Virus record (IMG/VR): IMGVR_UViG_3300009159_000307
Location: 1-24,305 of that record
Strand: one strand, 5' to 3'
DNA: 24,305 nt
From: a virus
Below are positions 4,228 through 18,081 of this stretch, piece by piece; the first letter of the stretch is position 1; each line of letters begins with the position of its first letter. The notes below the pieces were generated by a model. It was given only the letters and a program-made list of their open reading frames with translations. It had not been told where the DNA came from and did not search any database. The translations under genes and the position numbers were made by a program.

Positions 4228-4995
4228 ATGTATTTAGATAACAAATATACTCATTGGTATAATGACATAATCAATGCAGCCAAAACTAGGTCCAAACCTA
4301 ATAGTTACACCGAAAAACATCATATTATACCAGAATCTTTAGGTGGTTCAAATGACAAAGAAAATTTGGTGTATTTAACTTCCAAAGAACATTATACTGT
4401 ACATCATCTATTAACAAAAATGTTAATAGGATCACCAAAACATAAAATGATACACGCTTTTCATAGAATGTCTAACAGTAATGATATTAAAATTACAAAC
4501 AAACAATATGAAATATCAAAAAAATTAAAAAGTGATTTAATGATTCAATTACATAAAGATAAAAATTCGTATATTAATTCTGATGAATATAGAAAAAAAC
4601 AAATTGATGGTAAAAACAAACCTGAAGTAAAGAAAAAACAATCCAACAAAATGAAAGAAAACCATAAAAAAGAAAATTCAATATATAAAAATTTGAATTA
4701 TATTAAAAAACATAAAGACTCTTGCAATACCGTTGTATTTAAACAAAAAATGTCAGATACAAGAAAATTATATTGGTCTGATCCAAAATCAAAATATAAC
4801 GATAGACCAGATAATAAAAGAATTCCACCATTAAACAATAAAATTTGTAATGTAATAGATCTAAATGGTAATATTGTTGTTACGGATAATCTGAAACAAT
4901 ATTGTATAGATAATAATTTAAATTATCAATCAATGATGACCGTTGCCAGGGGGAAACAAAAAAAACATAAGGGTTATGAATGTAAATGGATTTAA
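4228..4995 (+). CDS. HNH homing-type endonuclease, antisense insert between genes 16 and 17
   Basis: This 255-aa protein has an N-terminal HNH nuclease motif: His31-His32 in EKHHIIPESLGG, Asn46 in KENLVYL and His55 in SKEHYTVHH. The middle (about residues 110-175) is lysine-rich with NUMOD3-like stretches. The C-terminus (about 205-255, ICNVIDLNGNIV to HKGYECKW) resembles NUMOD1-type helix-turn-helix DNA-binding modules. This is the layout of free-standing phage homing endonucleases, which cut alleles lacking the gene and spread by repair. It is the only plus-strand gene, has its own TATAAATA box and an AGGA 10 bases before the ATG, and its TAA overlaps the TAA of gene 16 at a TTAA. Two hand-counted 60-base samples held 11 and 14 G+C, far below the neighbours, which points to recent acquisition. 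The target site is not identifiable here. Confidence 0.9.
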   Translation: MYLDNKYTHWYNDIINAAKTRSKPNSYTEKHHIIPESLGGSNDKENLVYLTSKEHYTVHHLLTKMLIGSPKHKMIHAFHRMSNSNDIKITNKQYEISKKLKSDLMIQLHKDKNSYINSDEYRKKQIDGKNKPEVKKKQSNKMKENHKKENSIYKNLNYIKKHKDSCNTVVFKQKMSDTRKLYWSDPKSKYNDRPDNKRIPPLNNKICNVIDLNGNIVVTDNLKQYCIDNNLNYQSMMTVARGKQKKHKGYECKWI

Positions 4996-5426
4996 TTCAT
5001 ATCTATAACTTTTTTTTCATTATTATTCTTTAGTAATTTATTCAATTCTTCTGTGCTACCAACAAAAATAGCTTGGTCAATATTAGTGTTATTTACTTCT
5101 TTCTTTACATTATCCATATCACGCATTTGTTTTTGTATGTTTAGTAGTTCTTTATTAGCATCTACCATATTTTTAAGTAGTGTACCGTAGACTTCAAATG
5201 CTCTAGGATGTTGGCCTTGTTTTGCAATTTCTAATATTTCTGCCATGGCTTCTTGGCCTTGGTCAATAATACCTTGGAGATTTTCTCTTGACTGTTGGTA
5301 TGCATCATTTAAATCCTGTTGCATATCTGTGGGTTCATTATATTTTGTTGTAATTACCTGAGTCTTTTTTTCTTCAACAGGTACCACATCAAATATTTTT
5401 TCCATATTCTTATCAAAAGTATTCAT
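4992..5426 (-). CDS. 16: Terminase small subunit (T4 gp16-like)
   Basis: This 144-aa protein (T4 gp16 is 164 aa) is the recognition subunit that forms a ring, regulates the gp17 ATPase and starts DNA packaging. The central region, from TDMQQDLNDAYQQSRENL through GQHPRAFEVYGTLLKNM to NKELLNIQKQMR (about residues 33-105), is the predicted coiled-coil core and matches the family well. The C-terminus is Asn/Lys-rich. It starts two bases after the gene 15 stop and I see no clear Shine-Dalgarno, so translation is probably coupled to gene 15. Its stop overlaps the convergent HNH stop, leaving no room for a terminator between them. Confidence 0.88.
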   Translation of the reverse strand: MNTFDKNMEKIFDVVPVEEKKTQVITTKYNEPTDMQQDLNDAYQQSRENLQGIIDQGQEAMAEILEIAKQGQHPRAFEVYGTLLKNMVDANKELLNIQKQMRDMDNVKKEVNNTNIDQAIFVGSTEELNKLLKNNNEKKVIDMN

Positions 5427-5427
5427 T

Positions 5428-6423
5428 TTATGTGTTTGGTGTTTCTGTTATAGTGGTAGTATATGTATAATTACTATTAGCGTTAGCTGATGTTGGATTA
5501 GGAACAACAACAACTCTGGCCAACTTTAAAGGCGAAACCTCGTATGAATTGAATACATAGTTTGCGTTTGTGTTTAGACCTTTGATTGATTGTGTTGATA
5601 TAAAATTGCCTTGTAACTCAGTTAAATATAATTCTTTATTCGTTGTATTCCATTGAACAACTTTACCTGATGCAGATGATGTGTTTACAGAATAACCTTG
5701 ATATGCAATTTCACCTGTCTGGTATATACCATTGCCTGTATTGGCCATTTTGAATACCACCGTACTATCTGCGGTGACTTGATCATATACATTAGTAATA
5801 GCTGTTCTGATTATTGAAGCATTAGGAGTTGAAGCTCCATAAATGTAACCTTTCACGGTAAAATTTAGTGTCCAAATAACAACACGGGTATCATTCTCTC
5901 TCATACCTTCATATTCAACTTCATATTTGGTATCTTTTAATACAACAGGTATTTCTTTAACTATACCCATTTCTGGTACCATGTTTATTTTAATTGTATA
6001 GTCTGGTGCAAAGAATGGTAAAATATGTTCAATAATTTGTGAACCATCTTCTATATTTCTGACATAGATGTATAATGAAAAATCAAAGTTGTATGGTACT
6101 GGATTGTATTGAGAACTAACACTACCGTTTGATTGTTGTGCAAAGGCTTTCACATTTGTATTTTGTTTGCGAGACGAATCATAACTAATGCCGTTCATTT
6201 CAAATGACATTCTAGGTAGAGTCATTTGTATTTTTTTATCTAAATCTGGATCACCTTCCAAACGCATTACATATCTTTCTTTTGATGCATATGCAATAGG
6301 TACAATGAAACGTTCGGCTTCAGATTCATCTGTATTATAACGAACAAGTGTTATATTATCGAAAATGTTTCCGAATCCTACAATTATCTTTCTAATACTT
6401 CTATTATAATAAGTATTTGCCAT
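5428..6423 (-). CDS. 15: Tail sheath stabiliser and completion protein (T4 gp15-like)
   Basis: This 331-aa protein matches T4 gp15 (272 aa), which caps the head-proximal end of the tail as a hexamer and joins it to the neck. The family part spans about residues 1-200: MANTYYNRSIRKIIVGFGNI, the segment RYVMRLEGDPDLDKKIQMTLPR read in parts, YNFDFSLYIYVRN and VVIWTLNFTVKGYIYG. The extra length is a C-terminal domain (about 228-292) with TGEIAYQG, VVQW, LYLTELQGNF and IKGLNTNA, which closely resembles the C-terminal domain of the neighbouring gp14. The last 35 residues are Thr/Asn-rich. The ATG overlaps the gene 14 stop as TAATG, indicating translational coupling. Confidence 0.92.
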   Translation of the reverse strand: MANTYYNRSIRKIIVGFGNIFDNITLVRYNTDESEAERFIVPIAYASKERYVMRLEGDPDLDKKIQMTLPRMSFEMNGISYDSSRKQNTNVKAFAQQSNGSVSSQYNPVPYNFDFSLYIYVRNIEDGSQIIEHILPFFAPDYTIKINMVPEMGIVKEIPVVLKDTKYEVEYEGMRENDTRVVIWTLNFTVKGYIYGASTPNASIIRTAITNVYDQVTADSTVVFKMANTGNGIYQTGEIAYQGYSVNTSSASGKVVQWNTTNKELYLTELQGNFISTQSIKGLNTNANYVFNSYEVSPLKLARVVVVPNPTSANANSNYTYTTTITETPNT

Positions 6424-7304
6424 TATAATCTACCAAATGGATTTATTTCTGTATTATTAACAATTGTTGTGGCTGAAGTATTAATAACTTGATTGTCATA
6501 ACTTTCTTTTCTTGCTGGATCTTGTAATGGATCAAAATTTGCTAATATAAATTGTGCATTACTTGATGCACCAATGATTTTAACATTATCTGCAAATTCA
6601 CCATATATGTTCGTTACAGTCAACAATCTAGATGGAACAAACCATGTTTGTACTGTTGCATATGTGTTTGCGTTGGCCAACGTATTATCGGTTGATTGAA
6701 ACACAATCTCTGAAGATGTGTAACTACCTGTACCGTTGGCGGATAAGTTTAGATTCAATGTATAGGCTGATTGAGTAACAACATCATCAATATCTGGTAT
6801 ACCAGTTGAAATAACTTCTTGAGAATATTTGAATTTTTCAAGTGAAAGTTCATAGAAATATGGATTTATACGACCTAACATATGCATATCTTTTGCTTGT
6901 TCGGTAAATTTAATCTCATATAACTCACCAGTACCATTTAAGAAGGGTACGTATATCAAATCACCTTCACGGGGACGAGAAATATTGTTTGGTACTCTTT
7001 CATGGAATGACCTATGTGATACAATGACTTTAATTACATCTCTAATTTCAAGACCAAATTTAGAAAAGAAATCTTGGTCACCCATATATTCTGTTGCATT
7101 AGTAAGATACATTTCCAAAGGAAAAGCAGTTTCAAATTTCTTGACTGGATCTTCTCCAAATAATAAATCTCGAGCCGCATCATTGTCATTTGCAAGATAA
7201 TAGGTATCGAAACCCATTATTTTAATGGATTCTATAATGATATCTTCGATCAAACGTTGTTCGTTTTTCGCAGAATAGTTGTTGAAATATTGTGAAGTTG
7301 CCAT
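6423..7304 (-). CDS. 14: Neck protein (T4 gp14-like)
   Basis: This 293-aa protein matches T4 gp14 (256 aa), which with gp13 closes the filled head and forms the neck where the tail docks. Typical family stretches are SQYFNNYSAKNEQRLIEDII at the N-terminus, GFDTYYL, FGEDPVKKFETAFPLEMYL, REGDLIYVPF near residue 112 and GRINPYFYELSLEKFKYSQ. A C-terminal domain at about 192-255 (GTGSYTSSEIVFQS, ATVQTWF, LLTVTNIYGEF, KIIGASSNAQFIL) is shared with gp15. The gene starts one base after the gene 13 stop and its stop overlaps the gene 15 start, so 13-14-15 form a tight translational unit. Confidence 0.92.
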   Translation of the reverse strand: MATSQYFNNYSAKNEQRLIEDIIIESIKIMGFDTYYLANDNDAARDLLFGEDPVKKFETAFPLEMYLTNATEYMGDQDFFSKFGLEIRDVIKVIVSHRSFHERVPNNISRPREGDLIYVPFLNGTGELYEIKFTEQAKDMHMLGRINPYFYELSLEKFKYSQEVISTGIPDIDDVVTQSAYTLNLNLSANGTGSYTSSEIVFQSTDNTLANANTYATVQTWFVPSRLLTVTNIYGEFADNVKIIGASSNAQFILANFDPLQDPARKESYDNQVINTSATTIVNNTEINPFGRL

Positions 7305-7305
7305 A

Positions 7306-8076
7306 TTAGTTTATGAACATATCCAAAGGTCCACCGTAGTTCGTAATCATTTCTGATTCTAATTTAGTTATTTCTTCAGTAGCTTCAGCGAAAGTTTCTT
7401 TTCCGTTCAGTGTAACACCGCCAGGTAATTGTAGACCACCAAATTTCATCATGTTGGTTCCCCATTGTCTTTTAATCAAAGCTGTGGCATATTGTTTTAA
7501 CCAACGATCCGACCATACATTTCCATAAACATCCGGATTAATCACAGCAAAAGCTTCAGCTACAATAACTTGTCCTATTTTGGCTTGTGTTCCCCAACCC
7601 CAATCAATATAGAGTCTTTTCATATGTCTCTGATATCGAATAGGAACTTCTCCAGTGAACATAAGTTCTAGTGAACGTAAGTGTTGCATTGTCAAAGTAT
7701 AATTGATGTATGAGGCTGAGGTGAAGTCGTAGAGTTCATTTAAACGAAGTTGATACCTCAAATCAAACATATTAACATTTGACATGGTATCTGAAACAGG
7801 AAATATTCTGGTAATACCAATTATTTCTAATGGATTATTTTGAGCATCTACTGTCTGACTGAGATCCAAGTACCTTCGATCAATATCCGTTTGTTGTATA
7901 CCTTTGATGTAGTATACTTTTTGTACACCATCATAGTGGTAATCTTGCCAATATTGGAGTGCATCATCAATTCGATCCTGTACCTGATCATCATCTATGT
8001 TGATGTTTATGACCGGTGCACCCAATCGTCTTAGACAATAATCTGCAAAATCGTTTCTATTTGTAATTGTAGACAT
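7306..8076 (-). CDS. 13: Neck protein (T4 gp13-like)
   Basis: This protein matches T4 gp13 (309 aa), the head-completion and neck protein that partners gp14. Recognisable parts are NRNDFADYCLRRLGAP, the acidic DDDQVQDRIDDALQYW helix, YDGVQKVYY and, in the C-terminal half, LYIDWGWGTQAKIGQ and RWLKQYATALIKRQWG. I chose the ATG at 8074-8076 (256 aa, beginning MSTITNRNDF) because AGGAG lies seven bases upstream. An in-frame ATG at 8104-8106 would add ten residues, but it lacks a ribosome binding site and lies upstream of the late-promoter-like box, so a late transcript would not contain it. The ribosome binding site lies in one arm of a possible hairpin. The gene opens the 13-14-15-16 cluster. 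Confidence 0.92.
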   Translation of the reverse strand: MSTITNRNDFADYCLRRLGAPVININIDDDQVQDRIDDALQYWQDYHYDGVQKVYYIKGIQQTDIDRRYLDLSQTVDAQNNPLEIIGITRIFPVSDTMSNVNMFDLRYQLRLNELYDFTSASYINYTLTMQHLRSLELMFTGEVPIRYQRHMKRLYIDWGWGTQAKIGQVIVAEAFAVINPDVYGNVWSDRWLKQYATALIKRQWGTNMMKFGGLQLPGGVTLNGKETFAEATEEITKLESEMITNYGGPLDMFIN

Positions 8077-8081
8077 ATTAA

Positions 8082-8114
8082 TTCTCCTATCAATATATTT
8101 ATTCAACAGGAGAA
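8082..8114 (-). promoter_or_regulatory. Hairpin that would mask the gene 13 ribosome binding site
   Basis: On the minus strand TTCTCCT (8108-8114) is followed 19 bases later by its exact complement AGGAGAA (8082-8088), which is the gene 13 Shine-Dalgarno. In a transcript arriving from the upstream 68-aa gene the two arms can pair and hide the site. The late-promoter-like box lies in the loop, so a transcript started there lacks the masking arm. T4 genes e, soc and the I-TevI gene are known to use this arrangement to block translation from early readthrough RNA. The function here is inferred. Confidence 0.6.
8096..8103 (-). promoter_or_regulatory. Late-promoter-like box for gene 13 (AATAAATA)
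   Basis: The minus strand reads AATAAATA, one base from TATAAATA, inside the loop of the hairpin over the gene 13 start. Predicted initiation near 8090 would give a very short leader of about 13 bases that begins just before AGGAG. Short leaders are typical of T4 late mRNAs. Confidence 0.55.
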
Positions 8115-8123
8115 ATCATGTTA

Positions 8124-8330
8124 TTACATTTGAAATTTAGGGATTTCTCCACTGTCTTGGAGTTTTTGTACTTGAGCACTGGCTTGTTGTTGAATTGTGT
8201 CAATAACGCCACGACTATACTTGTGTGGAACTTCATCTAAAGACGCAAGTAAAACATTAATTTGACTAATTTTTAGAGTCAATGTAAGTTCTGGATCTTT
8301 TGCTTCTGGTTGTTGAGTTTGTTCTGTCAT
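8124..8330 (-). CDS. Small conserved-type phage protein, function unknown
   Basis: This 68-aa protein has an acidic, Gln-rich N-terminus (residues 1-15), then a strand-like LTLTLKISQINVLLASLDEV and an amphipathic helix from about residue 40 (RGVIDTIQQQASAQVQKLQ). It has no signal peptide, membrane segment or Cys. Small proteins with an LTLKxSQINxLLxxL pattern are, as I recall, common beside structural genes of environmental phages, but I know of no function. AGGAG sits eight bases before the ATG and a CATAAATA late-type box lies about 34 bases upstream. The conserved-looking core, good start signal and position between fibre and neck genes argue for a real virion-related or assembly protein. 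Confidence 0.75.
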   Translation of the reverse strand: MTEQTQQPEAKDPELTLTLKISQINVLLASLDEVPHKYSRGVIDTIQQQASAQVQKLQDSGEIPKFQM

Positions 8331-8778: not shown

Positions 8779-9095
8779 TTATGCCACCGCCTGTGAGATA
8801 CCTTGTTGATAAAGGTTTGTGCCATCAGATCGGAATGTGAAGTAGTCTTTAGCCCCTGCTGTTGTAGACAATGTAGGTGCAACACCCGCCGCCCACTTAA
8901 ATACTGAGTTCCAAGTCAACGTGTTACTACCAGCATTTTGGATTACAGCTAAAGCATAAAAACCTCCATTCTTTAAGTTTGTTGGTGCGCCCATTGTTCT
9001 ATTTGTAGATACAAATGTAAACGTTGCCACTTGACCACCCGCTGTACTAGTATCCCAAGTAATTGTAGCTGCATCTGTTAGTGTCAGGTTTGGTG
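8779..9095 (-). repeat. Fibre C-terminal domain module, copy 1
   Basis: About 105 codons, from YSPNLTLTDAATITWD to the stop, are nearly the same as the end of the fibre at 21316-21635. DNA identity includes an exact 48-base match (8872-8919 with 21409-21456) and an exact 26-base match beside it. The module is probably a trimer cap or tip; its high DNA identity makes it a recombination site. Confidence 0.85.
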
Positions 9096-12000
9096 AGTAT
9101 GCTGAGTCAATGACAACATAACCGCTGCCTTTTGGTGTCAATATTATATCAACATTTGCACCAGAACCTTGTGCAGAAAGTGTTGGTGTAGTGCTTGCAC
9201 TTCCTTCTACTTGCAGGTAGTTAACTGAACTAGCAACAGTCGTGACACGTAGGGATTCTGATCCTGCTGCGGCTCCTAGTGATGTTGTTCCTAATACTGT
9301 TAAACTCCCGCCGGATGTTATGGTACCCAGAGTTGTTAAGTTTCCTGTGCCTGTTAATTGCAAACAATCGTTTGAAGCCGACCATCCCCCAATACGGAAT
9401 ATATTATCCGTACCTAATCCCATGTTAATTGCGTATGCACCAGTTCTATGGAAGGACATTGAAGCGATTGTGCTGGTATTACCTCTAACAGAAAAAGATC
9501 CAGTGTCATTAGCAGTATTAACGTTTGTTGCGGCTGATGAGGCACCTATTAATAATCCGCTAAACGAGCCAGTAGTAGCACTAACAGTTCCACCAGATTG
9601 GTTTGTTGCGGTTGTAGCAGTTGTGGCAGTTGTGGCAGTTGTTGCGGTGTCAGCAGTACCAGCAGTTGCAACGTTTAGATTTGCCACTCTAGTAGTAGAA
9701 GCAACTGAAAATGGTGCTGTGCCAGTAGCAACTGTAGAAACAAATTGACCACTTGTTCCGTAATTACCTGTTCGACAATCAATATAGGCTTTAACAGTAG
9801 CTAAATCTTGATAATCACCAAAACCAATTCCATACCAAGAATTAATTTTTAAATTATATGTTGTAAAAGAAGCGCCATCTCCCGTACCTGCTTTAATTGC
9901 GTTTGTTCCTGCACCCGAAGGTAAAGCTATATTCCCTGAAAAAGAACCAGTTGTAGCACTAACAGTTCCACCAGATTGGTTTGTTGCGGTTGTAGCTGTA
10001 GCAGCAGAGCCTGTTACGTTAATTCCCCATGATCCACTGGCTCCCGTTCCCGTTAAGGTTGGAGAAAAACTATTAAAATTCGTACTCAATAGAACTCTTG
10101 ACCAAGCAGTAGTGCCGGATCCATTGGTTGCTCTATAATAAAAATCTTGAGTATCAAATCTAGAGGATAATTGCATAGCATAATAATTTGCATCATTAGT
10201 ATGTGTTGTTGATAACAAATGATGCCAACCTCCACTATCTGTGGGCCATCCTTCTGCTAAAGTTCCAGTGCTAGATTCATAAAAACCACTATTTGTTCTA
10301 GTAGTAATGTTGTCTTTTGATACTGCATCGTCAGAAAATACAGGGTATGGTGTGCTAGTTGCTGTTGTAGCAGTCGTGGCGGTGTCAGCAGTACCAGCAG
10401 TTGCCACGTTTAAGTTTGCAACTCTTGTTGTCGAAGTAATTACAAATGGTGCTGTACCAGTAGCTAAACTATTGGTCAACTGGTTATTCATTGATAATGT
10501 TGTTACACTAGCAATGGCACCAGTAACGTTAGCACTACCATTGAAGTTTTGTCCCCAAAGGGTTCTAATGGTTGTTAAGGTGGCTGCTGAACCAGTTGTG
10601 TTTTGGTTAAGTGTGGGAATATCGGCAGCAACAATTGCTCTAAATGTAGGAACTCCTGCGGATCCATTTGGTGCTGCAAGCACAAAGTTAGCTGTCTTTG
10701 AAGCATATGGGTTTGTTGTGTCACCATATGCGGCGCTTAAACTGATGACAGGTGCTGCGCCACCACTTGATGCAACAGGAGACGTTGCTGTAACACCTGT
10801 AACCGTACCTACGGCTGGTGATGTCCATGTTGGCACTGCACCTGCACCAGCCGAAGTTAAGACTTGTCCCGATGTGCCTGCCAAGTTGTTTGGTAGAAGT
10901 GGTCCTGTAAACCGTAATCCACCAGTACCTTTCGGTGTCAATACTATATCAACGTCTGCACTAGACCCCTGTGCTGAAAGGGTTGGCGTTGTGCTTGCGC
11001 TGCCTGTTACTTGCAGGTAATTAACTGCGGAGGCTGTGTCGGCAACACGAAACTGAACAGCCGAAGAGGTTCCGGTGTAAAACGTATGTGGCGACCCGCC
11101 TTTTGAAATGTATTCAAGAGAAATATTTGTATCAGAACCTTTTGCAAAAATGCGTCCACCTGTTCCTGTTGCCCCACCCCATACATCAACATAATTCACA
11201 GCACTGGCAACAGGCGTGACAAGTAAAGATGGTTGTGATGCCGCAGACGCATATCCTAAAGACACTGCCCCGCTTGATGTAATTTGCATAGAAGGCGTAA
11301 GGTTAGCGTCTGTAGCATTACGACGAGTTAAGAAATACAAATCGCCTTGTGAGTTTGATGCGCCGTTTGTTACATAAGACTTAATCGCCGCAAAACGCCA
11401 TGAGCCTGATGCCGCACCAAATACAACAGAGCCACCGTTACCCGCTGCGCCAGCCGTATCCGAAACAAGCAACGCACTGCCAAGTGCGCCTGACGTACTA
11501 ATGCTGGATACGGCTTGACCGTTCCCTAAAACCTGAACAGGATTGTCACCCTTTGGTACAAGACTCATTCCAATGTTTGCATCGGAGCCTTGTGCAGACA
11601 TAAAAGGTGCTGCACTTGTTATGTTGCCGTTTACTTGCAAATAATTAACAGCGGAGGCTGTCGGTGCAATGCGGAATTGTTGCAGACCACCGTTTGTTCT
11701 GAAGCTATGCGCCTCTGTGCCTTTAGCGTCGTAAGTGATGAAGATATTTGTATCGCTACCTTGGGCAGAAAAGTTCACACCCGCAGTCGTAGCGCCGCCA
11801 GTCACATATATTTGATTTACGGCATTAACAGTAGGCGCAATAACAAAGTTTGCGTAACCAGAGTTAGCTGTAAACACATGGTACTCAGCGCCTTTGGCAT
11901 TGTAATTTATACCTACGTTTGCGTCAGAACCGAGAGCGTAAAAGTTTGTTCTATTACCTGTTGCACTACCGTTTATTTGCAGATAGTTAACCGCTGAGGC

Positions 12001-15000
12001 AGTGTGTCCTACAAAGAATTGAGTTTGGTTACCGCCATTAGTTCTAAACAAGTGTCCGTTGCTGCCTTTTGAGTCAAATACAAGATTGATATTTGAATCA
12101 GTACCTTGTGCGCTAATTACGGGGCTGCCGCCTGATACACCACCAGTAACTTGCAAATAGTTAACTGCTGAGGCTGTGCTTGTCACCGCAAATTGTGGGG
12201 CGGACGCTAGGTTGTAATAATACATACCAGCGCCAAAGGTATAAAAACTACCAGTGCCTTTTGCTTGCATCGTAAAACTTATATTTGCATCAGAACCTTG
12301 AGCAGTAAGTAACGGCGCATTACCCGTAGACCCACCTGTTGCTTGCAGATAGTTAACTGCTGAAGCTGTGTGGGCGATGCTGAATTGAGCCTGTGCAAAA
12401 GTGTTTGTAAAAAATGATATTGACGCAGTGCCTTTTGATGAGACCTGCATACCTACATTTGTGTCAGTACCAGTAGAGAATAAATAAGGTGCGCCAGTTG
12501 TAGCCGCACCCGACACTTGTAGGTAATTAACAGCTGAGGCTGAGTGGGATATTTGAAACTGTGTATTGGCAGTGTTGCCATTTGTTCTAAATAAATGTGC
12601 GCCCGTACCTTTAGTGGCAAATACTGCGTTGACGTTAGTATCTGAGCCAGTTGACTGTAGAACCGGAGATACGCCTGTGCTTGCACCCAACACCTCAAGA
12701 AAATTTACCGCACTAGCAATAGGCGTGACACGCAGGGATTCTGAGCCGGGCGCTGCGCCTAGAGAAATTGTTCCACCAGCAATTCGCATACTTTCTGAAG
12801 GTGTTGCTGTACCTCCTGGAGATGTGAAAACGGATACATAACTGCTGATATTAGTATTACTAGTAAATGTACCAATAGTACCTCTAATATGAGCTACATT
12901 TGAATTGCTAGATCCGTTATAACCGCTAAAAAAATATGTACCAAGCACATCACCACTTATAACTGATGTTTGCGAGGACATAGTTCCTCTGGATTTTCTA
13001 AGCACCATATTTGGACCAACGGCATCTGTGGAACTTCTATGAACAGTTAAGTTTGTGTTCAAATCTCCACTTATGAATGGATTACTAGCCGTAGCATGAT
13101 ATATTGACAGTATATCACCAGATATAAATTCGGTTGATCCAATAGCAACGTTACCAGCAAAATAATTGTTTGTTCCTGTTACCTTAACGTTACCAGCAAC
13201 ACCTAAACCACCACTTATAACCAAAGCACCAGTAACATTACTTGTTGAAGGTTGTGTATTAGCAATAATTAATTGAGATGAACCATTGACAGTGATTGAG
13301 GTTCCTGTATTCGCTAACCGAGTATTAGCAAATGTAAATGCACCTTGTGCTAATATGTTTGCTGTATTTGCTTGAGTAAATGCTGATTGAGTGAATACAT
13401 TTACAGTATTAGCAAAAGTATATGCTGATTGAGTAAATTCTGCATTAGAACTAATCCAGGTGTTTTGAGATGTGTTTACGCCTTGCAGTGCTACAGTATT
13501 TGATTGTGCTGAATTGGCTGTACTATAAGCAGAATACGAATATGTGTTAACAGTATTAGCAAATGTAAATGCACCTTGTGCTAATATGTTAGCAGCATTT
13601 GCTTGAGTAAATGCCGATTGAGTAAATACATTAACCGTATTAGCAAATGTATATGCTGATTGTGTAAATGCTGCATTAGAACTTAACCAAGTATTTTGAG
13701 TAGTATTTACACCTTGAAGTACTACAGTATTAGACTGTGCTGAGTTTGCTGTACTATAAGCAGCTTGACTATATGCACCAAGTTCAATACCACCAACTGT
13801 TGCAGTATTACCTACAAGATTACCCTTAAAGAATCCACCATATACGTTAGCTGTGACAAAAGTAGGATCAGCAATATTAATTAAATTATTAGCTCGAATT
13901 TCTGGTGTGTAATTTTGGAAGAAAAACCATTCTTTTAGAGTAGCATCTCTAAAAACACCAGTGTGAGCATTTTGTGTTGAATTGTAATGTCCTATAATAC
14001 CAATATCAACAGTATCGGAAATAGTATTATTATTTCCAAGAAATATCAATGGATCATTTACGACAATTGATGAAGTATTAATAGTTGTTGAAATACCATT
14101 AATAATTAAATTACCAGATACAGTTAAGTCATTTGTGACAGATACCGATCCTGAAATAGTTCCACCAGTTTTAGCATAGTGAGTTGCATCGGTATATGAT
14201 TTAAGACCAGTATTAGCTTGATCGACATACGCCTTCATAGCAGTATTAGCAGCAGTTACATATCCGGATACAGCATTGTTTGATGCCAAAACATATGAAG
14301 CCATACCAGTATTGGCTTGGTCAACATACGATTTCAGACCAGTGTTAGCCTGATCGACATATGCTTTCATTGCAGTATTGGCTGCTGTCACATATCCCGA
14401 TACAGCATTGTTTGTAGAAAGTACATAAGAAGCCATGCCTGTATTAGCTTGGTCAACGTAAGACTTCAACCCTGTATTGGCTTGGTCAACATAAGCCTTT
14501 ATGGATGTATTAGCAGCAGTTACATAAGCAGTTACAGCATTATTTGTAGAAAGTACATATGATGCCATTCCAGTATTAGACTGATCGACATAGGCCTTCA
14601 TTGCAGTATTAGCAGTAATTACATTGCTAGACACATACGATGCCATGCCTGTATTAGCTTGGTCTACATATGATTTCATTGCCGTATTAGAAGCAGTCAC
14701 ATAAGCAGTTACGGCATTATTAGAGGCTAGTACATAAGAAGCCATGCCTGTATTGGCTTGAATTACATATGACTTTAGACCAGTGTTAGCTTGATCTACA
14801 TACGCTTTCATTGCGGTATTGGAAGAAGTTACATATCCAGTTACCGCATTATTGGATACTAAAACATACGATGCCATTCCAGTATTAGCCTGATCGACAT
14901 ATGCTTTCATTGCAGTATTAGCAGCAGTTACATATCCTGATACAGCATTGTTTGTAGAAAGTACATAAGAAGCCATTCCAGTATTGGCTTGGTCTACATA

Positions 15001-18000
15001 TGCTTTCATTGCCGTATTAGCTGCTGTCACATAAGCAGACACCGCATTATTGGATACTAAAACATATGAAGCCATTCCAGTATTGGCTTGGTCAACATAA
15101 GATTTCATTGCCGTATTAGCAGCAGTTACATATCCTGATACAGCATTGTTTGTAGAAAGTACATACGATGCCATTCCAGTATTAGCCTGATCGACATAGG
15201 CCTTCATTGCAGTATTAGCTGCTGTCACATAAGCAGTTACAGCATTATTTGATGCCAAAACATAAGAAGCCATACCAGTATTAGCCTGGTCGACATAAGC
15301 CTTCATTGCCGTATTAGCTGTATTTGTATATGTCTGTGCAGTACTTAGAGTAGTAGCGTCATTAGCTTGTAAGAAGGTGTTTGCTGAATAAGCATATGTA
15401 TTGACTGTATTAGCAAATGTAAATGATGCTTGTGCTAAAATATTTGCACTATTTGCTTTGTCGAAAGATGCACCAATAGTGGTATTTTGTACGATATTTA
15501 CTGATTGTAATACTGTTATGTTTGTTGCAGCAATATTTGCTGTATTATTAGCAGTGTTAGCGGTATTGTATGCAGACTGTGTGAATACTGCATTGGAACT
15601 AATCCAGGTGTTTTGAGTAACATCTACACCTTGGGTTATTACCGTATTAGACTGTGCTGAGTTTGCTATGCTGTAAGCTGAGTAAGAATATGTATTAACT
15701 GTATTAGCAAATGTAAAAGCACCTTGCGCTAATATGTTAGCTGAATTGGCTTGAGTAAATGCCGATTGTGTAAACACAGCATTAGCACTAATCCAGGTGT
15801 TTTGGGTTGTATTTATTCCTTGTAGTACAATTGTATTAGACTGTGCTGAGTTTGCTGTACTATAAGATGAGTAAGAATATACATTAACTGTATTGGCAAA
15901 TGTAAATGCTGCCTGTGCTAATATGTTAGCTGAATTGGCTTGAGTAAATGCTGCCTGTGCTAGCATATTTGCAGAGTTTGCTTTATCAAATGCTGCTGAT
16001 ATGTTAGTGTTTTGTACATCATTTACTGATTGTAAAACCACAGTATTTGCAGCAGCCGTATTTGCTGTACTATAAGCTGAGTAAGAATAGGTGTTGACTG
16101 TATTAGCTTGAGTAAATGCTGCCTGTGCTAATATATTTGCAGAGTTTGCTTGTGAGTATGCACTTTGAGTGAATACGTTTACTGTATTGGCTTTATCAAA
16201 AGCTGAATTTGCAGTTTGTCTAGCATATCCGTCAATTGATGATCCACCAGTTAGAGTATTGGCTAAATCAAATGCACCTTGTGCTTTGGAGTTTGCTGTA
16301 TTAGCTGTAGTATATGCAGATTGCGTAAAAACATTTACGGTATTGGCTTTATCAAAAGATGCTGTTATATATGTGAATACATCTATTCCATTTGTTCTCA
16401 CTGTACTAGCAACAACATTACCTTTAAAGTAACCTGCATAAACGTTAGCATATGCAAATGATGGATCTGCTATGTTAATTAAATTATTAGCTTCAATTTC
16501 TGGTGTATAACCTTGAAAAAATAAGTATTCTTTCAGATTAGGATCACGAATTAAACCAGTATGAGCATTTGTTGTTGAATTATAATGTCCAACAAAACCA
16601 ATATCTACTGAATCTGAAATAAAATTATTATTTGCCAAATAAAGCAAAGGATCATTTAATACTATTGATGAAGTATTAATTGTTGTTGCTGTACCATTTA
16701 CAAATAAGTTGCCTGAAACTGTTAGATCATTCGAAATTGAAACTGAACCAGTTATGGCACCACCAGTTTTAGCATAATGTGTTGCATCTGTATATGACTT
16801 TAGACCAGTATTAGCCTGATCGACATAGGCCTTCATTGCAGTATTAGCTGCTGTCACATAAGCAGATACAGCATTGTTTGTCGATAGAACATATGATGCC
16901 ATGCCTGTATTGGCTTGGTCAACATAAGCTTTCATCGCTGTGTTGGATGAAGTCACATATCCTGATACAGCATTATTTGTCGATAGAACATATGAAGCCA
17001 TTCCAGTATTGGCTTGGTCTACATATGTTTTCATTGCCGTATTAGCAGCAGTCACATAAGCAGACACCGCATTATTGGATACTAAAACATAAGATGCCAT
17101 ACCGGTGTTGGCTTGGTCAACATACGATTTCAGACCAGTGTTAGCCTGATCGACATATGCCTTCATTGCAGTATTGGCTGATGTTACATTGCTAGACACA
17201 TATGAAGCCATTCCAGTATTGGCTTGATCAACATAGGCTTTCATAGCCGTATTAGATGATGTTACATAACCAGTTACAGCATTATTGGAAGAAAGCACGT
17301 AAGAAGTCATGCCTGTATTGGCTTGGTCTACATATGACTTTAATCCGGTGTTGGCTTGGTCAACATACGCTTTCATAGCCGTATTAGTTGTATTTGTATA
17401 TGTCTGTGCAGTACTTAATGTGATAACGTCATTGGCTTGTAAGAATGTATTTGCTGAATAAGCATAAACATTAACAGTGTTGGCTTTATCAAAGGCCAAT
17501 TGTGCAAGTATATTAGCTGAGTTTGCTTTAGCAAATCCTGATGCAGCATAATTGGTTACACTAGAAATATTTGTATTTTGTGTGTTGTCTATACCCTGAG
17601 TGATTATAGTATTAGCTGAAGCTGAATTCGCAACACTATAGGCACTTTGCGTAAATACATTAACAGTATTGCTAAAATTATAATTAGATTGTGCTAATAC
17701 AGTTGTAGCATTTGCTGTTTGTAAAGCTGAATTTGCCGTTGTAGATATATTATTAGCTAAGTAGTATGCTGTATTTGCTGTCTGTGAAGCTAAGTTTGCA
17801 GTATAGAAAGCATTGTTTGCTGTTGTAGATATATTATTAGCTAAGTAGTATGCTGTATTTGCTGTCTGTGAAGCTGAATTTGCAATTGCATATATCTCAT
17901 CAACTTGAGATTGTACATTTACTGCACCAGAAAATATTGATGTTGATGGTACAGTTACCTGAGTTCCTTGATTAACACGAACATCAATTATACTTAAATT

Positions 18001-18081
18001 TGAACTTGGTACAGTTACCTGATCTCCTTGATTAACACGGACATTTATTGCATTAACCGGATTGACGATGATCGCAGGCAT
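8779..18081 (-). CDS. Giant tail-fibre-like protein (3100 aa)
   Basis: Domains in order: an N-terminal segment with a twin VRVNQGxQVTVPS motif (about residues 13-47, possible attachment end); heptad coiled coil (about 60-230); 11-residue repeats (230-430); a globular domain (432-558); heptads (560-915); more 11-residue repeats (915-1297); a second copy of the globular domain (1298-1430); heptads (1434-1585); a beta-rich region with nine SAVNYLQ-type repeats (about 1780-2390); fibre-type segments with NTTGSAATLTT and repeated ATTATTAT runs; a pyocin-knob-like domain (about 2584-2665); a tenth SAVNYLQ repeat (about 2950); and a C-terminal domain (2999-3100) shared with the other fibre. Such layouts belong to trimeric receptor-binding fibres. 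I see no S74 peptidase chaperone. The ATG overlaps the upstream stop as TAATG. It sits where T4 has 12 and wac. Its exact role (long fibre, whisker or short fibre) is unknown. Confidence 0.88.
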   Translation of the reverse strand: MPAIIVNPVNAINVRVNQGDQVTVPSSNLSIIDVRVNQGTQVTVPSTSIFSGAVNVQSQVDEIYAIANSASQTANTAYYLANNISTTANNAFYTANLASQTANTAYYLANNISTTANSALQTANATTVLAQSNYNFSNTVNVFTQSAYSVANSASANTIITQGIDNTQNTNISSVTNYAASGFAKANSANILAQLAFDKANTVNVYAYSANTFLQANDVITLSTAQTYTNTTNTAMKAYVDQANTGLKSYVDQANTGMTSYVLSSNNAVTGYVTSSNTAMKAYVDQANTGMASYVSSNVTSANTAMKAYVDQANTGLKSYVDQANTGMASYVLVSNNAVSAYVTAANTAMKTYVDQANTGMASYVLSTNNAVSGYVTSSNTAMKAYVDQANTGMASYVLSTNNAVSAYVTAANTAMKAYVDQANTGLKSYTDATHYAKTGGAITGSVSISNDLTVSGNLFVNGTATTINTSSIVLNDPLLYLANNNFISDSVDIGFVGHYNSTTNAHTGLIRDPNLKEYLFFQGYTPEIEANNLINIADPSFAYANVYAGYFKGNVVASTVRTNGIDVFTYITASFDKANTVNVFTQSAYTTANTANSKAQGAFDLANTLTGGSSIDGYARQTANSAFDKANTVNVFTQSAYSQANSANILAQAAFTQANTVNTYSYSAYSTANTAAANTVVLQSVNDVQNTNISAAFDKANSANMLAQAAFTQANSANILAQAAFTFANTVNVYSYSSYSTANSAQSNTIVLQGINTTQNTWISANAVFTQSAFTQANSANILAQGAFTFANTVNTYSYSAYSIANSAQSNTVITQGVDVTQNTWISSNAVFTQSAYNTANTANNTANIAATNITVLQSVNIVQNTTIGASFDKANSANILAQASFTFANTVNTYAYSANTFLQANDATTLSTAQTYTNTANTAMKAYVDQANTGMASYVLASNNAVTAYVTAANTAMKAYVDQANTGMASYVLSTNNAVSGYVTAANTAMKSYVDQANTGMASYVLVSNNAVSAYVTAANTAMKAYVDQANTGMASYVLSTNNAVSGYVTAANTAMKAYVDQANTGMASYVLVSNNAVTGYVTSSNTAMKAYVDQANTGLKSYVIQANTGMASYVLASNNAVTAYVTASNTAMKSYVDQANTGMASYVSSNVITANTAMKAYVDQSNTGMASYVLSTNNAVTAYVTAANTSIKAYVDQANTGLKSYVDQANTGMASYVLSTNNAVSGYVTAANTAMKAYVDQANTGLKSYVDQANTGMASYVLASNNAVSGYVTAANTAMKAYVDQANTGLKSYTDATHYAKTGGTISGSVSVTNDLTVSGNLIINGISTTINTSSIVVNDPLIFLGNNNTISDTVDIGIIGHYNSTQNAHTGVFRDATLKEWFFFQNYTPEIRANNLINIADPTFVTANVYGGFFKGNLVGNTATVGGIELGAYSQAAYSTANSAQSNTVVLQGVNTTQNTWLSSNAAFTQSAYTFANTVNVFTQSAFTQANAANILAQGAFTFANTVNTYSYSAYSTANSAQSNTVALQGVNTSQNTWISSNAEFTQSAYTFANTVNVFTQSAFTQANTANILAQGAFTFANTRLANTGTSITVNGSSQLIIANTQPSTSNVTGALVISGGLGVAGNVKVTGTNNYFAGNVAIGSTEFISGDILSIYHATASNPFISGDLNTNLTVHRSSTDAVGPNMVLRKSRGTMSSQTSVISGDVLGTYFFSGYNGSSNSNVAHIRGTIGTFTSNTNISSYVSVFTSPGGTATPSESMRIAGGTISLGAAPGSESLRVTPIASAVNFLEVLGASTGVSPVLQSTGSDTNVNAVFATKGTGAHLFRTNGNTANTQFQISHSASAVNYLQVSGAATTGAPYLFSTGTDTNVGMQVSSKGTASISFFTNTFAQAQFSIAHTASAVNYLQATGGSTGNAPLLTAQGSDANISFTMQAKGTGSFYTFGAGMYYYNLASAPQFAVTSTASAVNYLQVTGGVSGGSPVISAQGTDSNINLVFDSKGSNGHLFRTNGGNQTQFFVGHTASAVNYLQINGSATGNRTNFYALGSDANVGINYNAKGAEYHVFTANSGYANFVIAPTVNAVNQIYVTGGATTAGVNFSAQGSDTNIFITYDAKGTEAHSFRTNGGLQQFRIAPTASAVNYLQVNGNITSAAPFMSAQGSDANIGMSLVPKGDNPVQVLGNGQAVSSISTSGALGSALLVSDTAGAAGNGGSVVFGAASGSWRFAAIKSYVTNGASNSQGDLYFLTRRNATDANLTPSMQITSSGAVSLGYASAASQPSLLVTPVASAVNYVDVWGGATGTGGRIFAKGSDTNISLEYISKGGSPHTFYTGTSSAVQFRVADTASAVNYLQVTGSASTTPTLSAQGSSADVDIVLTPKGTGGLRFTGPLLPNNLAGTSGQVLTSAGAGAVPTWTSPAVGTVTGVTATSPVASSGGAAPVISLSAAYGDTTNPYASKTANFVLAAPNGSAGVPTFRAIVAADIPTLNQNTTGSAATLTTIRTLWGQNFNGSANVTGAIASVTTLSMNNQLTNSLATGTAPFVITSTTRVANLNVATAGTADTATTATTATSTPYPVFSDDAVSKDNITTRTNSGFYESSTGTLAEGWPTDSGGWHHLLSTTHTNDANYYAMQLSSRFDTQDFYYRATNGSGTTAWSRVLLSTNFNSFSPTLTGTGASGSWGINVTGSAATATTATNQSGGTVSATTGSFSGNIALPSGAGTNAIKAGTGDGASFTTYNLKINSWYGIGFGDYQDLATVKAYIDCRTGNYGTSGQFVSTVATGTAPFSVASTTRVANLNVATAGTADTATTATTATTATTATNQSGGTVSATTGSFSGLLIGASSAATNVNTANDTGSFSVRGNTSTIASMSFHRTGAYAINMGLGTDNIFRIGGWSASNDCLQLTGTGNLTTLGTITSGGSLTVLGTTSLGAAAGSESLRVTTVASSVNYLQVEGSASTTPTLSAQGSGANVDIILTPKGSGYVVIDSAYSPNLTLTDAATITWDTSTAGGQVATFTFVSTNRTMGAPTNLKNGGFYALAVIQNAGSNTLTWNSVFKWAAGVAPTLSTTAGAKDYFTFRSDGTNLYQQGISQAVA
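10900..12740 (-). repeat. Nine tandem SAVNYLQ-type repeats of about 60 residues
   Basis: Each unit reads roughly TASAVNYLQVTG, then AQGSDxNI, then a KGTG turn, then HxFRTNG and QFxIAH, over 57-65 residues. The seventh and eighth units are separated by a different segment of about 80 residues (near 11270-11535) containing GNGGSVVFG and WRFAAIKSY. The units differ at many positions, so they are old duplications. The region is richer in G+C than the coiled-coil regions. Confidence 0.85.
13780..14190 (-). repeat. Globular fibre domain, copy 2 of 2
   Basis: The segment from THYAKTGGTISGSVSVTNDL through TINTSSIV, GHYNST and NAHTGVF to NLINIADP and GGFFKGN matches the segment at 16405-16785. It interrupts the coiled coil. 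Some positions differ, so the duplication is not recent. Confidence 0.85.
14190..15335 (-). repeat. Second 11-residue repeat block of the giant fibre (about 34 units)
   Basis: Units alternate as AYVDQANTGMA, SYVLSTNNAVS and GYVTAANTAMK, making a 33-residue (99-base) higher-order repeat. One unit near 14610 carries a 4-residue insertion (SSNVI) and is 15 long. Hydrophobic positions recur at spacings 4-3-4, as expected of hendecad coiled coil. Confidence 0.88.
15176..15236. repeat. Exact 61-base direct repeat, copy A
   Basis: The same 61 bases occur at 16805-16865, 1629 bases away in the same direction, in the other 11-residue repeat block. Neighbouring units encode the same residues with different codons, so this identity suggests recent copying between blocks. 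Confidence 0.85.
16405..16785 (-). repeat. Globular fibre domain, copy 1 of 2
   Basis: The segment from THYAKTGGAITGSVSISNDL to AGYFKGNVVAS, about 125 residues, matches the copy at 13780-14190. Both copies follow an 11-residue repeat block ending in LKSYTDATHYAKTGG and precede a heptad block, so the whole coil-plus-domain module seems to have been duplicated. Confidence 0.85.
16790..17395 (-). repeat. First 11-residue repeat block of the giant fibre (about 18 units)
   Basis: It has the same units and 33-residue higher-order order as the block at 14190-15335, including a single 15-residue unit containing SSNVT near 17190. It is about half the length of the second block. Confidence 0.88.
16805..16865. 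repeat. Exact 61-base direct repeat, copy B
   Basis: This is the partner of 15176-15236. Identity stops abruptly on both sides. Confidence 0.85.
17738..17875. repeat. Exact 54-base direct repeat, two copies 84 bases apart
   Basis: 17738-17791 equals 17822-17875. The 84-base spacing is 28 residues, four heptads, so the duplication keeps the coiled-coil register. It encodes the AYYLANNISTTAN segment twice near the fibre N-terminus. Confidence 0.88.

Follow-up and report, generated by a model that had tools for sequence, protein, structure and literature searches.

A predicted RNA hairpin, split by the gene's own late promoter, would hide the Shine-Dalgarno sequence of neck gene 13 in many uncultured T4-like phages and probably insulates the 13-16 block

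In phage T4, RNA reading through into the lysis gene e folds over the translation start, while the late RNA, which lacks the 5' strand of that structure, is translated (PMC3014915). The SD or the start codon likewise lies in a helix in T4 soc, gene 49, I-TevI, I-TevII, I-TevIII, segB and the mobE gene of Aeh1, and for I-TevI it is a late promoter just upstream that frees the buried start (PMC3014915, PMC2988022). Coliphages RB49 and IME08 carry a terminator and a late promoter before gene 13, which likewise severs this gene from upstream transcription, but their hairpin would act on transcription and leaves the SD outside the stem. The locus described here is the leader of gene 13 in a 24.3-kb viral contig of a T4-like phage (24,305 nt, the whole stretch analysed, hereafter the window), and it shows three features of the e, soc, 49 and I-TevI class, namely a buried SD (predicted), a promoter that would free late RNA of the 5' arm, and compensating pairs. 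In gene e, too, the late promoter (TATAAATA) is situated around the 5' strand (PMC3014915); e, however, is a lysis gene silenced on early RNA, whereas here an essential neck gene heads a late operon and has late boxes upstream. The remaining cases concern other genes, several of them mobile endonucleases. The promoter-split logic itself is therefore established, reviews describing it for e, soc, 49, I-TevI and other homing endonucleases (PMC3014915, PMC2988022), as the original prediction had stated, and its further statement that the neck operon was not among the reported cases held as well, since the open-access papers searched gave no such structure at gene 13 or in the neck operon.

On the minus strand the window carries, in this order, tail-fibre-like genes, a 114-aa ORF, a 68-aa ORF, genes 13, 14, 15 and 16, and then genes 17, 18 and 19. 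The start of gene 13 was taken as the ATG at 8076, as in the original prediction; the frame of the ORF tool opens at a TTG at 8106. The features around it are as follows.

8124-8330, minus strand: 68-aa ORF upstream of gene 13 and co-directional with it; it has a late box of its own (8370-8364)
8105-8114, minus strand: 5' (blocking) arm UUCUCCUGUU, which pairs with the SD in the predicted fold, covaries in relatives and is missing from RNA begun at 8090
8096-8103, minus strand: T4-type late promoter box AATAAATA (-13 to -6), in the loop; position by PMC1524935
8090, minus strand: predicted +1 of the late transcript, placed by the T4 rule six bases past the final A of the box
8082-8091, minus strand: 3' arm GAUAGGAGAA of the predicted fold, with the gene 13 Shine-Dalgarno (AGGAG)
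7306-8076, minus strand: gene 13, neck protein (head-tail adaptor Ad2), ATG at 8076 (phrog_211, E 3e-40)
5428-7304, minus strand: genes 14 (head closure Hc2) and 15 (tail sheath stabiliser), in close succession after gene 13 and with no clear SD
4992-5426, minus strand: gene 16, small terminase, last of the packed block, 1 nt after gene 15 (phrog_445)

The starts of genes 14, 15 and 16 lie at most 1 nt from the preceding stop and clear SDs are missing there; in most relatives too, gene 14 follows gene 13 within 10 nt. The 68-aa ORF has no family match in Rfam, Pfam or PHROG, and the second gene upstream of gene 13 has two late boxes (8774 and 8759). Genes 16 and 17 are separated by an inserted HNH homing endonuclease gene on the other strand (4228-4995, plus strand), and a 3100-aa protein (8779-18081, minus strand), without PHROG match, consists largely of repeats such as TAMKAYVDQANTGM.

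Reading along the minus strand, TTCTCCT (8114-8108) is followed by the 19 nt GTTGAATAAATATATTGAT, AGGAGAA (8088-8082), TTAAT and the gene 13 ATG (8076-8074), which bears out both the inverted arms originally pointed out and the identity of the second arm with the gene 13 SD. Three further pairs (GUU with GAU, two of them G-U) extend the 7-bp arms to a 10-bp stem with a predicted energy of -12.4 kcal/mol (z -3.4), three of the ten pairs being weak (G-U or adjoining the loop), and an equally good fold arose in only one of 200 dinucleotide shuffles. The hairpin fills most of the 47 nt between the 68-aa ORF and gene 13. Folding with and without the upstream arm, over several context lengths, gave the outcome that the original prediction had proposed: the predicted probability that the SD is unpaired is 0.0003-0.002 in read-through RNA vs 0.63-0.78 in RNA begun at 8090. 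Among the 13 gene leaders in the window, an SD-covering stem of at least seven Watson-Crick pairs occurs at gene 13 only. TTCTCCT has five occurrences on the two strands of the window, the expectation being about 0.004 per 40 nt. The leader finds no explanation in Rfam, Pfam or PHROG, its comparison with Rfam giving no match to a curated model and a single sub-threshold hit located elsewhere. Inverted repeats also bracket the late box (674-668) of gene 19 (tail tube, ATG at 644), within window positions 691-658 on the minus strand. ATCGTTG (691-685) and CAACGAT (664-658) make a 7-bp repeat there, but the second arm stops 2 nt short of the SD and does not cover it.

The late promoter in the loop, also part of the original prediction, was recovered as a T4-type box at 8103-8096, whose A at -13 is a normal T4 variant found at nine of about fifty T4 sites (PMC2988020). 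Since T4 late boxes span -13 to -6 (PMC1524935), the predicted +1 falls at 8090, and the late RNA begun there would lack the 5' arm 8114-8105. A homologue of the late sigma factor gp55 was present in all ten related genomes tested, the window itself being a 24-kb fragment, and sigma-70-like sites near the leader were at chance level only. We gave no evidential weight to where +1 falls with respect to the stem, a placement that the geometry all but dictates.

To place the element among relatives, gene 13 homologues were fetched by protein similarity irrespective of their leaders, and cultured phages were added; the first of the four homologue sets was seeded with the window's gp13 and the other three with hairpin-bearing gp13, so that the counts below are not family-wide frequencies. 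After removal of duplicates there were 191 distinct leaders, 147 of them with a TAAATA box, of which 134 also have an SD. We distinguished type I, with the 5' arm upstream of or overlapping the late box, from type II, with the 5' arm in the box and spacer: 54 leaders are strong type I, with stems of up to 18 bp, 18 are type II, 75 have a box without a strong stem and 44 are without a box. Type I follows the gp13 tree, with ten changes vs 47 when shuffled, and occurs in every leader of two gp13 clades (25 of 25 and 20 of 20). The window's own clade (n = 65) comprises five type I, nine type II, 40 box-only leaders and 11 without a box; type I has been gained or lost repeatedly in it and, with only 5 of 65 leaders of type I, the element is dispensable there. 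Thus, where the original prediction looked to related phages, the answer is divided: the arm is present throughout two clades, with compensating changes, but the window's own clade mostly keeps the SD without the arm. The cultured phages examined have no strong stem, Pelagibacter phage Mosig (L268) having a weak one.

This patchiness (5 of 65) is what could be said for a chance or vestigial match in the window, the element being real in other clades, a reading that we regard as very improbable: about 0.004 such matches are expected per leader, and L279, L335, L006 and L340, all of the same clade, share the stem, either its inner pairs or its loop having changed. In L340 the end of the upstream ORF is almost the same as in the window, and the 7-bp arms are preserved base for base while several positions of the loop differ.

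When 45 distinct type I stems were aligned in register on the SD, 83% of cells were paired and both sides had changed in 11 of the 14 pairs (112 cells, compared with 45.2, sd 4.8, for shuffled stems); because this register had been fitted, pairing is favoured in these figures. The covariation score was 0.430, and sliding the 3' side by 1-3 columns reduced it to 0.073-0.115. With a fixed TCC/GGA anchor in place of a fit, 11 of 12 flanking positions paired more than they did with shuffled partners, and stems of at least 8 bp numbered 44 vs 18.8 expected. On this comparison across relatives the hairpin is a real element and not a product of chance. The same alignment bears on whether the repeat, which brackets the promoter, acts instead as a DNA palindrome (a protein site or a cruciform) and not as RNA. 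We consider this hardly credible, given that the stem sequence varies freely with pairing kept, that G-U pairs occur in most columns and that the SD is the most constant part.

Another possibility is that the hairpin is mainly an intrinsic terminator, stopping upstream RNA before gene 13. A U-run does follow 22 of the 54 type I stems, and RB49 and IME08 have their terminator-like hairpin at the same place; however, 32 of the 54 stems have no U-run, the sequence after the window stem (UUAAUAUG) has none either, and a terminator scan was negative at this stem on this strand. A terminator role is accordingly unlikely for the window and possible for the 22 relatives. Terminator and hairpin never occur together in one leader, only six leaders having a terminator, too few to weigh.

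A further test against chance came from two scans of the whole IMG/VR collection, one with the arm pattern and one with its reversed copy as a control of equal composition. The totals (at least 120 for each pattern) are uninformative. Among the matches listed that lead directly into an ORF, the pairing run inside the selected 6-mers continued for a mean of 2.84 bp with the real pattern, compared with 0.78 bp (sd 0.13) for swapped arms, whereas listed control matches showed no continued pairing (0.82 vs 0.78 swapped). Gene 13 was the commonest family behind the real pattern among the matches listed (PHROGs: 17 of 76 proteins; local profile: 31 of 103), and was missing among the families listed for 43 control proteins; the three control matches to the local gene 13 profile come from real-set loci in which the arm contains the control word as well. 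Homing endonucleases and further genes make up the other real-pattern matches. Two pattern matches (L222 and L263) were rejected as trivial, because divergent genes face each other there and each arm mirrors the SD of the other gene; the neighbours of gene 13, unlike these, are co-directional. At both loci the divergent genes share an AT-rich region with late boxes on both strands.

In two large uncultured genomes that carry the hairpin, searched piecewise for late boxes and then an ORF, a strong SD-covering stem was found at gene 13 alone, of 13 bp among 20 late-promoter genes in G001 and of 18 bp among nine in G004, and in G008, whose gene 13 is without a strong stem, no late-promoter gene has one. 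Stems ahead of the late promoters of other genes likewise surpass swapped arms, by a modest margin (z -3.2 and -3.7), and therefore gene 13 is not the sole user of such stems.

Taken as an RNA element, the hairpin is proposed to work as follows. RNA entering gene 13 from upstream, for which the 68-aa ORF is the proposed source, would carry both arms, fold and be poorly translated, while RNA begun at about 8090 without the 5' arm would have its SD free. Since each of genes 14-16 begins within 1 nt of its predecessor and shows no clear SD, translation throughout the block 13-16 is probably governed by this gate. We think it probable that the main effect is insulation, the block being expressed from its own late promoter only and shut off from RNA arriving from upstream, be it late tail-fibre RNA or read-through of earlier origin. 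As judged from the late boxes of the upstream genes (8370, 8774 and 8759), RNA reaching gene 13 from upstream would be at least partly late.

These boxes also leave unsupported, as worded, the original suggestion that the hairpin delays neck synthesis until late infection. In that interpretation gene 13 is silenced on early or middle read-through RNA and the neck proteins appear late, as with T4 gene e; the parallel to e and I-TevI would be exact (PMC3014915, PMC2988022), and at 44 of the 54 type I loci the next gene upstream is without a late box, so that it may be read from a more remote promoter, of whatever class. Against it, the directly upstream gene has its own late box in G001 as well as in the window, most neighbouring genes are tail genes or unknown and not early ones, and early neck proteins would have no obvious cost. 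Timing is thus a tentative alternative, which we hold to be the less probable one. Insulation explains the anatomy at least as well and, in view of the upstream late boxes, more economically.

In type II leaders the 5' arm is drawn from the promoter box and spacer and ends at the predicted start, as in AAATAGTCCT...AGGACTATTT, where the predicted start follows the first element. The class rests on a comparison of 75 leaders in which the stretch of 8 nt preceding +1 was a better match to the downstream SD region than swapped stretches were (z -8.1), which is weaker evidence as related rows inflate the figure. This layout, in which the box itself is the 5' arm, was seen in L485, L486, L493, L500, L501, L504 and L505, and L500 has a compensating U-A to C-G change.

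Considering both types, we lean towards the view that a gate specific to gene 13 is a conserved feature heading the neck-terminase block in large uncultured T4-like lineages, where it would tie connector synthesis to a single promoter. The few classical T4 cases would thereby be joined by an essential virion-assembly gene of common aquatic phages. The singling out of gene 13 within single genomes suggests that the amount or the source of neck protein is under selection. In addition, covarying stems support late promoter positions in unculturable phages, and nature offers variants ready for testing where hairpin, terminator and bare promoter replace one another.

Two further arrangements were seen among the relatives. 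In L279 (2277-2340), L282 (2270-2332) and L004 (3775-3833), an SD-covering repeat (TCCTTGTTG...TAACAAGGA or a variant of it) encloses a late box belonging to the gene behind gene 13, probably gene 14. In L338, L340 and L341 the match to gene 13 stretches over about 1000 nt yet covers 254-257 residues, suggesting that an intron or a mobile gene is inserted within gene 13.
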